From: Phycisphaeraceae bacterium
GTDB lineage: Bacteria; Planctomycetota; Phycisphaerae; Phycisphaerales; Phycisphaeraceae
Direction of reading: 5' to 3'
NCBI GenBank assembly: GCA_029260595.1
Contig: JAJDCY010000010.1
Location: 297,675 to 361,674 of the forward strand
DNA: 64,000 nucleotides
The position numbers and the translations under genes are program-made. The notes below the pieces were generated by a model. It saw only the letters and a list, made by a program, of their open reading frames with translations, made no database searches and had not been told where the DNA came from. Positions 12,468 to 15,047 of the stretch are shown in pieces (within the stretch, counting starts at the first letter, position 1; every line of letters begins with the position of its first letter).

Positions 12468-12610
12468 CGGCGCAAGGTTTGCGCGGCGTGCGGCGAATAC
12501 GGCCAGCCGACGCCCGCGGGTAGTGATGACGGCAGGACGCCGTCGCCCGGGTCAACGGAACCGACCTCGGGGATCGAACCAGGATGGATGGCCGGATGAG
12601 GTTTGGTCAG

Positions 12611-13057
12611 ATGATCGTCAACACCACGAGATTCGGACAGGTTGAGGTCGACGAAGCCGGCGTGATCACGTTCCCCAAGGGGGTACTTGGTTTTCCCAAG
12701 TACACGCAGTACGTGCTCATGCAGCCGGACGACGACAGCTTCTTCCTGTGGCTGCAGTCGGTCGATGCGGCGGACCTGGCGTTTGTCGTCACGGACCCCA
12801 AGCAGTTCGTGCCGACCTACCGCGTGCCGTTCAAGACGGAGCAGATGGAAGACCTGGGCATCCGGACGCCTTCCGAGGCCGAGGTCTTCGTGATTGTGAA
12901 CAAGCACGGGAGCATGCTGACGGGGAACCTGCAGGGGCCGTTGGTCATCCACGTGAAGGACCGGGTTGGTGAGCAACTGGTGCTCTCGGACCGGCGGTTC
13001 ACGACGCGGGTGCCGCTGGTTGAGCTCGGCCGAGCGGTCGAGGCGGTCCCGGCGTAG
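12611..13057 (+). CDS. fliW: Flagellar assembly factor FliW
   Basis: FliW binds flagellin and, when flagellin is exported, is freed to bind and inhibit CsrA. The 148-residue frame starts [15 protein letters not shown], followed by [18 protein letters not shown], the strongest FliW block, and [19 protein letters not shown] near the end. ATG 12611 was chosen because GAGGT lies at 12598-12602, eight bases upstream, and family members begin at this point; ATG 12584 and 12596 are in frame. csrA follows after 122 bases and flagellin after that, the classical partner-switch order. Confidence 0.95.
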
Positions 13058-13097: not shown

Positions 13098-13119
13098 GGC
13101 GGCGCACGGACGCGCCGCC
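13098..13119 (+). promoter_or_regulatory. Candidate CsrA-binding hairpin in the csrA leader
   Basis: An 8-bp perfect stem, GGCGGCGC (13098-13105) with GCGCCGCC (13112-13119), closes a six-base loop ACGGAC. CsrA/RsmA targets typically show ANGGA in a hairpin hexaloop, and this loop fits. It lies between the fliW stop and the csrA start, 60 bases before the ATG. It would allow autoregulation of csrA or control of a fliW-csrA transcript. Inference from structure only. Confidence 0.55.
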
Positions 13120-13179
13120 AGTGTGTGCTACGCAGAGCGTCGCCGGGAGGTCCGGCGTCCAAGGAAGGAGCTCAACCCA

Positions 13180-13443
13180 ATGCTCGTGCTTTCCCGTCAG
13201 CGCGACGAAACGATCATGATCGGTGATCAAATCGAGATCACCGTGGTCGATATCCGAGGGGACAAGGTGCGGTTGGGGATCAACGCCCCGCGGCAGGTCC
13301 AGGTGCACAGAAAAGAAGTGTACGACTCGATCAAGCGAGAGAACACCGAGGCATCCAATGTGCAGATCGACGACCTTGACCTTGCGGACGACAACCTGCG
13401 GCGGCTGGATCGGCGAGCCGGTACCGGCCTGCAGCGACCATAG
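13180..13443 (+). CDS. csrA: Carbon storage regulator CsrA
   Basis: Homodimeric RNA-binding translational regulator, 87 residues. [16 protein letters not shown] and the RNA-contact strand [12 protein letters not shown] are conserved; Leu4 and Arg44, key RNA-binding residues in the family, are present. About 25 residues beyond the minimal 61 form a charged C-terminal tail, seen in CsrA proteins that work with FliW. ATG 13180 has AAGGAG at 13165-13170. The frame is open upstream but without family similarity. It sits between fliW and flagellin, its probable main target. Confidence 0.97.
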
Positions 13444-13514: not shown

Positions 13515-13565
13515 CGCGGCTATGACGGGGCCAGACCCCGGGGCCGAGCGAGGATCACGAACAGG

Positions 13566-13585
13566 GACAATCAAGGAGGATTGTC
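13566..13585 (+). promoter_or_regulatory. CsrA-target hairpin holding the flagellin Shine-Dalgarno
   Basis: GACAATC (13566-13572) and GATTGTC (13579-13585) form a perfect 7-bp stem around the six-base loop AAGGAG, which contains the ANGGA CsrA motif and most of the flagellin ribosome-binding site AGGAGG (13574-13579). The ATG follows at 13587. CsrA bound here would block ribosome entry, as shown for hag of Bacillus subtilis. Further GGA triplets at 13552 and 13565 could serve as a second site. The sequence and fold are seen directly; binding is inferred. Confidence 0.72.
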
Positions 13586-13586
13586 G

Positions 13587-15047
13587 ATGTCAAGAATCAA
13601 TACCAACGTTACGGCACTGATCGCCCAGCACAACCTAAGCAAGACCAACGCCGACCTGGCGACCCGCCTCCAGCGGCTAAGCACGGGTCTGCGGATCAAC
13701 CGTGGGGCGGATGACCCGTCCGGGCTGATCGTCTCCGAGCGGTTGCGAAGCGAGATCGCCGGTATTTCCCAGGCGATCAACAACGCCGAGCGAGCCGCCA
13801 ACGTCATCGCAACCACCGAAGCCGCACTGACCGAGGTCTCGACGCTGCTGACCGATATCAAGGGATTGGTGGTCGAAGCGGCGAACACCGGTGGGTTCAG
13901 CAAAGCCGAAACGGAAGCGAACCAGTTGCAGATCGACTCGGCGGTCGAGTCCATCACGCGGATCGCCAACACGGCGAGCTTCGCGGGGCTGAAGCTGCTC
14001 AACGGCGGATTGGACTACCTGACCAGTGGCGTTGATCAGAACCAGATACAGGACGTCAAGGTGTTCGGCGCCTCAGTTGCGACCGGCTCACACATGCCGG
14101 TGACCGTCGAGGTGTTGACAAGCGCGAACTCCGCGCAGTTGTTTATCTCCGGCAATACAGCCGGCGCCGTAGGGGCGTTGCTGTCGAGCGTTACCTTTGA
14201 AATCAACGGGGCTCTGGGTTCGGAGGTGTTCGAGTTCATCAGCGGCACGGCGTTGTCTGCCGTGGCATTCGCGGTGAATCAGGTGGTCGATGTTACGGGC
14301 GTGTCCGCTTCGTTGGTCAACGGTGCCGACGCGACATCCGGCCTGGTGCTCAGCAGTTCCGAGCTCGGATCGGATTCGTTTGTCAGCGTCCGTAAGCTGG
14401 CCGACGGTGACTTCCTGCAGACGTTCGATGCGCAGGGAGGCAGCGCGGTTAATCGCGACGTGGGCGAGGATGTGTTTGCACTGGTGAACGGGAATCTGGC
14501 ATTGGGCGACGGTGCGAAGGTCAGCCTGCGATCGTCCGTGCTGAACATCGAGCTGACCCTAACGACCGCGGCCGCACAGACACAAGGCGTCAATTCCTTC
14601 GCGATCACCGGCGGCGGAACCACCTACCAGATCGGCGAGGATATCAACCCCGGTCAACAGGTGAACTTCGGGATCCAATCGGTCGCGGCGAGCCACCTCG
14701 GGCGTGAGGCGATCGGGTTCCTCAGCTCGATTGTGACCGGCGGCGACAACAGTTTGATTGCCAGCAAATCCCGCGAATCGTCGCTGATTATTGAAGAAGC
14801 AATCGACCAGGTCTCGACGCTTCGTGGGCGGCTCGGTGCCTTCGAACGCAACACGCTGCAGACGAGTGTGCGGAGCAATCAGATTGCGCTTGAGAATCTA
14901 ACGTCGGCGGAAAGTGTGGTCCGTGACGCGGACTTTGCGTCAGAAACGGCGAGCCTGACCCGTGCCCAGATCCTGGCCAACGCCGGGACATCGACGTTAG
15001 CAATCGCCAACAGCACAGCTCAGAGCGTGTTGTCGCTGCTGCAATAA
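13587..15047 (+). CDS. fliC: Flagellin
   Basis: Filament subunit, 486 residues. The N-terminal D0/D1 is canonical (MSRINTNVTALIAQHNLSK, LSTGLRINRGADDPSGL), as is the C-terminal D1/D0 (LRGRLGAFERNTLQTSVRSN, ADFASETASLTRAQILANAG, ending QSVLSLLQ). Residues of about 150-380 are a variable outer domain. ATG 13587 is preceded by AAGGAGGA seven bases upstream, inside a hairpin loop that fits a CsrA target; the TTG at 13581 is less likely. It closes the flagellar run, and the next genes are on the opposite strand. Confidence 0.97.
   Translation: MSRINTNVTALIAQHNLSKTNADLATRLQRLSTGLRINRGADDPSGLIVSERLRSEIAGISQAINNAERAANVIATTEAALTEVSTLLTDIKGLVVEAANTGGFSKAETEANQLQIDSAVESITRIANTASFAGLKLLNGGLDYLTSGVDQNQIQDVKVFGASVATGSHMPVTVEVLTSANSAQLFISGNTAGAVGALLSSVTFEINGALGSEVFEFISGTALSAVAFAVNQVVDVTGVSASLVNGADATSGLVLSSSELGSDSFVSVRKLADGDFLQTFDAQGGSAVNRDVGEDVFALVNGNLALGDGAKVSLRSSVLNIELTLTTAAAQTQGVNSFAITGGGTTYQIGEDINPGQQVNFGIQSVAASHLGREAIGFLSSIVTGGDNSLIASKSRESSLIIEEAIDQVSTLRGRLGAFERNTLQTSVRSNQIALENLTSAESVVRDADFASETASLTRAQILANAGTSTLAIANSTAQSVLSLLQ

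Follow-up and report, generated by a model that had tools for sequence, protein, structure and literature searches.

The control of flagellin synthesis by CsrA and its protein antagonist FliW is a mechanism already known from Bacillus and Campylobacter. In Bacillus subtilis, as two accounts describe it (PMC7652899, PMC6529632), csrA adjoins fliW, and CsrA acts over the Shine-Dalgarno sequence (SD) of the flagellin gene hag, whose leader contains two CsrA sites, one of them at the SD (Yakhnin 2007 and Mukherjee 2011, through the same accounts). The FliW:CsrA ratio is set there by overlapping genes and translational coupling (PMC6529632). In Campylobacter jejuni, the 45-nt flaA leader carries two tandem ANGGA stem-loops 21 nt apart, and the second lies over the ribosome-binding site (RBS) (Dugar et al. 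2016, PMC4894983). Residue N55 of CsrA is required for FliW binding in both species (PMC7829508). Escherichia coli CsrA has sites in its own leader, and on glgC a hairpin with GGA in the loop tethers CsrA, which bridges to an SD site 10-63 nt away; its antagonists are sponge RNAs and not FliW (PMC7652899). Planctomycetota are listed among the phyla with FliW (PMC4682653), and beyond this list we found no planctomycete study of the flagellin-FliW-CsrA switch in the open-access literature.

The locus presented here lies in a stretch of 64,000 nt (the window, to which all plain coordinates refer), in a run of flagellar genes that reads flgJ-like (weak), flgN, flgK, flgL-like, fliW, csrA and flagellin. 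The three genes of interest are:

12611..13057, + strand: fliW, encoding FliW, the CsrA antagonist (PF02623, E 2.4e-34; a longer in-frame start lies at 12584)
13180..13443, + strand: csrA, encoding 87 aa with a C-terminal extension and N55 (PF02599, E 1e-25)
13587..15047, + strand: flagellin gene downstream of hairpin B (PF00669 and PF00700)

An initial annotation made from the sequence had placed fliW and csrA directly upstream of flagellin, the three genes together in about 2.5 kb, and had guessed at a planctomycete host. The domain assignments agree with this order, the fliW start and the flagellin stop are about 2.45 kb apart, and the genome belongs with the Phycisphaeraceae (Planctomycetota). 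The fliW start is probably 12611 rather than 12584, because the alignments of most homologues begin at residue 10. All three partners are thus present, and FliW and CsrA are of the interacting type: the best structure match of FliW is the FliW of the FliW-CsrA complex 5DMB (E 8.6e-20), that of CsrA is chain D of the same complex, and N55, the FliW-contact residue, is found in this CsrA and in 134/138 aligned relatives, one of the four exceptions (L073) being an alignment slip. The csrA gene is present in 61/61 of the nearest genomes, and flagellin is next downstream in most loci read. Between csrA and flagellin, scores for a conserved sigma54, sigma28 or sigma70 promoter in the family equaled those of shuffled sequences.

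The flagellin leader ends in the following elements:

13566..13585, + strand: hairpin B, predicted CsrA site over the flagellin SD (sequence, fold, conservation, covariation, other-start control)
13573..13579, + strand: SD, AAGGAGG, 7 nt 5' of the flagellin ATG (sequence)

Hairpin B reads GACAATCAAGGAGGATTGTC in DNA; in RNA, the arms GACAAUC and GAUUGUC form seven Watson-Crick pairs around the hexaloop AAGGAG, and the 3' end lies one base upstream of the ATG at 13587. The loop contains the flagellin SD, the final G of which is paired in the stem. The 7-bp perfect stem, and a loop that is at once ANGGA motif and SD, had both been noticed earlier, and sequence and fold uphold them. The high-affinity CsrA/RsmE hexaloop consensus CANGGANG, as cited in PMC4894983, is matched by CAAGGAGG at 13572-13579, with ANGGAN as the hexaloop of the 7-bp stem. 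Hairpin B alone is predicted at -7.1 kcal/mol, so that the earlier description of one strong hairpin stands for the single perfect hairpin but slightly overstates its strength, the stability being moderate. When the 197-nt leader is folded, all seven pairs have probabilities of 0.98-1.0; the leader overall is not unusually stable compared with shuffles (z = 0.02), and the signal of hairpin B is therefore local. The window contains 247 ANGGAN sites on both strands, only two of them with perfect stems of at least 6 bp, against shuffle expectations of 0.13 (at least 6 bp) and 0.05 (at least 7 bp), and both (13566-13585 and 13098-13119) fall in one small locus. Hairpin B is unlikely to be a product of chance. 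An Rfam search of the region matched no family. Genome-wide scans were made with covariance models; in the own genome they gave no significant extra copies of either hairpin, and model R2, built on the flagellin hairpin, was significant only at flagellin. A close likeness to a described loop was found in Pseudomonas: the apical 12 nt of hairpin B, AUCAAGGAGGAU, are one base off AUCAAGGACGAU of RsmZ SL2, the apical AUCAAGGA(C/G)GAU being nearly identical, and SL2 binds RsmE in the low-nM range, although SL2 is a loop of a sponge RNA that removes RsmE whereas hairpin B is an mRNA start site (PMC12047976).

Among relatives the hairpin keeps a fixed place. Covariance model R1, built on hairpin B, gave one match per genome in 45/61 relatives of the order, and the matches with surroundings read lie between csrA and flagellin. 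The identical 20-mer occurs in 27/31 family members, and mean pairwise identity across these 31, all of which carry the hairpin so that the values gauge variation where it is present, reaches 97.8% in the hairpin, compared with 28.7% over the preceding 20 nt and 73.9% over the 30 nt that open the coding sequence. Loss of stem and loop in relatives had been named beforehand as the outcome that would speak against the element; the opposite was found, about 98% against 29% identity. Two family leaders that were fetched (L033 and L040) lack the hairpin. Where the stem does change, pairing is kept, by a compensatory swap in L028 (GACAAAC with GUUUGUC) and through G-U in L025 and L041 (GACAGUC); L020 has the loop AGGGAA. 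Outside the family but within the order, the five inner pairs are retained, and the outer pairs give way to a pairing of AGCC with GGCU around the AUG. In one draft genome (G019, L059:709-728) a hairpin with an AAGGAA loop precedes a GTG start, and the flagellin appears to be shortened or broken.

We extended the comparison to the class with leaders picked via csrA (order) or via flagellin (class), thereby avoiding selection by the hairpin itself; the class matches fetched with R1 (L105-L113 and L144-L158) were excluded from alignment A2 and the column counts, and included in the start-site control. Among the 95 leaders with GGA in place, GGA and the closing G14 are found in all, and C7 and A8 in 94, with loop position 2 free (A57/C16/G12/T10), a column pattern equal to CANGGANG. 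These leaders constitute a ready set of natural CsrA-site variants. The pattern bears on whether hairpin B could be a protein-independent translational attenuator or thermometer in which CsrA takes no part. An SD in the loop with its last G in the stem, the predicted -7.1 kcal/mol and a stem sequence strongly kept throughout the family would suit such a device. However, it has no need of CA-N-GGA-NG with one free loop position, does not require fliW and csrA next door, leaves unexplained a second ANGGAN hairpin before csrA where the SD is not covered, and would have to contend with nearby genes that lack such a hairpin. We consider it improbable.

The stem of hairpin B is retained by compensation across the class while the loop is constant. 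For 58 distinct rows, pairing is 73.2% against 67.9% in shuffles (reached by 0/500), double-changed cells number 34 against 19.8 (1/500), and the covariation score is 0.201 against 0.136 (1/500), with all slid registers lower. The alignment of leaders that had been proposed as a check thus showed, class-wide, that the ANGGA loop is invariant, that the stem changes by compensation and that the element holds its place between csrA and flagellin. The same comparison makes it very improbable that the inverted repeat serves in DNA as the operator of a transcription factor, with the RNA form incidental. GACAATC-N6-GATTGTC is a perfect inverted repeat in DNA, nearly invariant in the family, and it recurs away from flagellin in two Thalassospira genomes; yet class-wide it is the arms that vary and the spacer ANGGAG that stays constant, the opposite of operator behavior, and the element stays close to the ATG, at a distance like that of an SD. 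A search over 84,980 species gave the exact 20-mer in 30 stretches, 28 from planctomycetes and two from Thalassospira (L123:4554-4573 and L138:5911-5930). The Thalassospira copies have no start codon behind them and no adjacent flagellin, and may be an operator or a coincidental match.

AAGGAGG comes close to a perfect SD, and flagellin is strongly expressed. It is nevertheless scarcely credible that the motif is just the preferred SD of this lineage, used strongly for an abundant protein, since neither the invariant C upstream nor the invariant A downstream matches the anti-SD, the base preceding GGAG varies freely, the two arms show covariation, and the context is not shared by other GGAG starts of these loci; pairing with the anti-SD requires neither the C before the loop, nor the A after GGAGG, nor the free N. 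The core UCANGGAGGA precedes 99/117 flagellin starts compared with 2/179 other GGAG-SD starts of the same loci, and by their N-termini (MSRIITNVPS...) these two also resemble flagellins. Stems of at least 5 bp accompany 74/117 flagellin starts and 5/179 other starts, four of the five being fliW genes as judged from N-termini.

Our observations at this locus comprise sequence, predicted fold, conservation, covariation, gene context and the conserved FliW-contact residue. From these, and by analogy with the described systems, it is highly probable that hairpin B is a high-affinity CsrA site through which CsrA could cover the flagellin RBS, under a FliW/flagellin partner switch. When cytoplasmic flagellin is high, FliW would be held by flagellin and CsrA left free; free CsrA would bind the ANGGA loop of hairpin B and block ribosome entry on the flagellin mRNA. 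When flagellin is exported, FliW would be released, bind CsrA via N55 and the C-terminal helix, and take it off the flagellin mRNA. The initial annotation had seen the whole partner switch at this locus: genes, ANGGA site and conservation support that view, while CsrA binding, translational repression, the exchange of partners between FliW and flagellin, and autoregulation we infer from homologous systems. It had also likened the geometry to that of B. subtilis hag, which is right for the type of switch, as the same three proteins are involved, but for the hairpin the closest precedent is C. jejuni flaA (PMC4894983). With flaA it has in common an ANGGA hexaloop that covers the RBS, compensatory changes among relatives and a FliW antagonist, as well as a CsrA without known sponge RNAs (PMC4894983). 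The differences are the phylum, the single SD hairpin with no clear second in place of two, and a further hairpin in the csrA leader. Our results thereby extend the flagellin-FliW-CsrA switch to Planctomycetota, the RNA site being supported at the level of sequence.

That further hairpin is the second perfect ANGGAN hairpin of the window, overlooked in the earlier inventory, which had listed hairpin B. The csrA leader contains:

13098..13119, + strand: hairpin A, GGCGGCGC[ACGGAC]GCGCCGCC, 8-bp stem, predicted CsrA autoregulatory tether site (hexaloop scan, leader enrichment, covariation, model R3)
13158..13169, + strand: short stem-loop TCC[AAGGAA]GGA, possible second CsrA site (3' arm enters the csrA SD; evidence weaker than for hairpins A and B)

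Hairpin A lies inside the fliW-csrA gap, its 3' end 60 nt upstream of the csrA ATG. The gap measures 122 nt and the genes do not overlap, whereas overlap and coupling are described for B. subtilis (PMC6529632). ANGGAN hexaloop hairpins of at least 4 bp are found in 45/95 csrA leaders, where 0.97 would be expected and no more than 5 were reached in 100 shuffles; those of at least 6 bp are found in 31/95 against 0.17. Their stems covary freely, with 87 double-changed cells against 27.6 and all 8 pairs involved, although these rows were preselected for at least 4 pairs and the fair test is therefore the enrichment in 45/95 leaders. The distance from loop to ATG varies from 31 to 150 nt. In the own genome, model R3, built on hairpin A, had 13098-13119 as its sole match at E up to 10. 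The csrA SD, GGAG, lies at 13167-13170, and CCANGGAAGG is present in 44/97 csrA leaders. This leader thus has CsrA-type sites in hairpin A and in the SD-proximal ANGGAA, the latter being weaker. The two GGA are 55 nt apart, within the bridging range of 10-63 nt known for CsrA (PMC7652899), as they are in 23/27 measurable relatives.

Hairpin A is a probable CsrA autoregulatory site, judging by these patterns. CsrA would tether at hairpin A and reach the csrA start, probably limiting its own synthesis, as the E. coli glgC tether and csrA autoregulation suggest, and very probably the flagellin-FliW-CsrA switch runs here with this extra feedback on csrA itself. We found no report of CsrA autoregulation in FliW-type systems in the open-access literature; both the host group and the presence of such an element in the csrA leader, next to fliW, look new. 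The element suggests that CsrA autoregulates in a FliW-type system, and bears on how a near 1:1 FliW:CsrA ratio is held when the genes do not overlap. The hairpin B stem is almost invariant in the family, beyond the needs of CsrA recognition, so another constraint may act on it. A nearly frozen stem in hairpin B within the family, against a freely varying hairpin A, is not explained by CsrA recognition alone. We propose, tentatively and with somewhat more doubt than confidence, that in Phycisphaerae the csrA leader keeps the CsrA:FliW balance through a hairpin that binds CsrA, i.e. by built-in autoregulation, rather than by overlap and coupling in the manner of B. subtilis, and that the near-invariance of the flagellin stem reflects a further factor which, besides CsrA, binds there in a sequence-specific manner.

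For the other half of a CsrA dimer, the flagellin leader of the window offers no good second hairpin; upstream are only a 3-bp GGA hairpin and one unstructured contact:

13552..13554, + strand: unstructured GGA (in GAGGAU), weak candidate for a second CsrA-dimer contact (sequence; 23 nt upstream of the hairpin B GGA)

In the family, a second GGA at a set position 5' of hairpin B is in slight excess only, with no clear position-specific enrichment. Hairpins with GGA in the loop are more frequent upstream than expected in both the class (17/44 against 2.4) and the phylum (14/48 against 2.2), and some read ACAAGGAUGU (L231, L241), so that two-site flagellin leaders do exist. In a sample of 39 genomes from other planctomycete families, stems of at least 4 bp occur at the flagellin SD in 9/25 genomes that encode FliW and 0/14 that lack it (Fisher p 0.015), an association that is suggestive only and is confounded by phylogeny, because most FliW-lacking genomes are of one family (f49). 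A survey of CsrA paralogues in other planctomycete families (G571, G598, G551, G636, G512, G446, G627, G642 and others) gave 5-13 per genome in f49, which has no FliW, and 4-8 in f82 and f89. Most relatives in the order have a further CsrA of divergent sequence (about 50 bits); the own genome, which is 88% complete, yielded a single CsrA.

The fliW leader of the window has no ANGGAN hairpin at its SD. In a few class members (L208, L270, L271 and L291) the fliW SD lies inside an ANGGAG hairpin, for example ACGGAG between the arms ATCAGAA and TTCTGAT in L270, and CsrA may in these genomes control its own antagonist. The flagellin gene at 13587..15047 is one of four in the genome. The three others stand in tandem (L189, G000:C6:28500-35500), their SDs in the weaker contexts ttcACGGAGGac, tccAGGGAGGat and ttcCAAGGAGGat. 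Among flagellin paralogues of relatives, UCACGGAGGA with short stems is recurrent, which suggests a graded control of the paralogues by CsrA.
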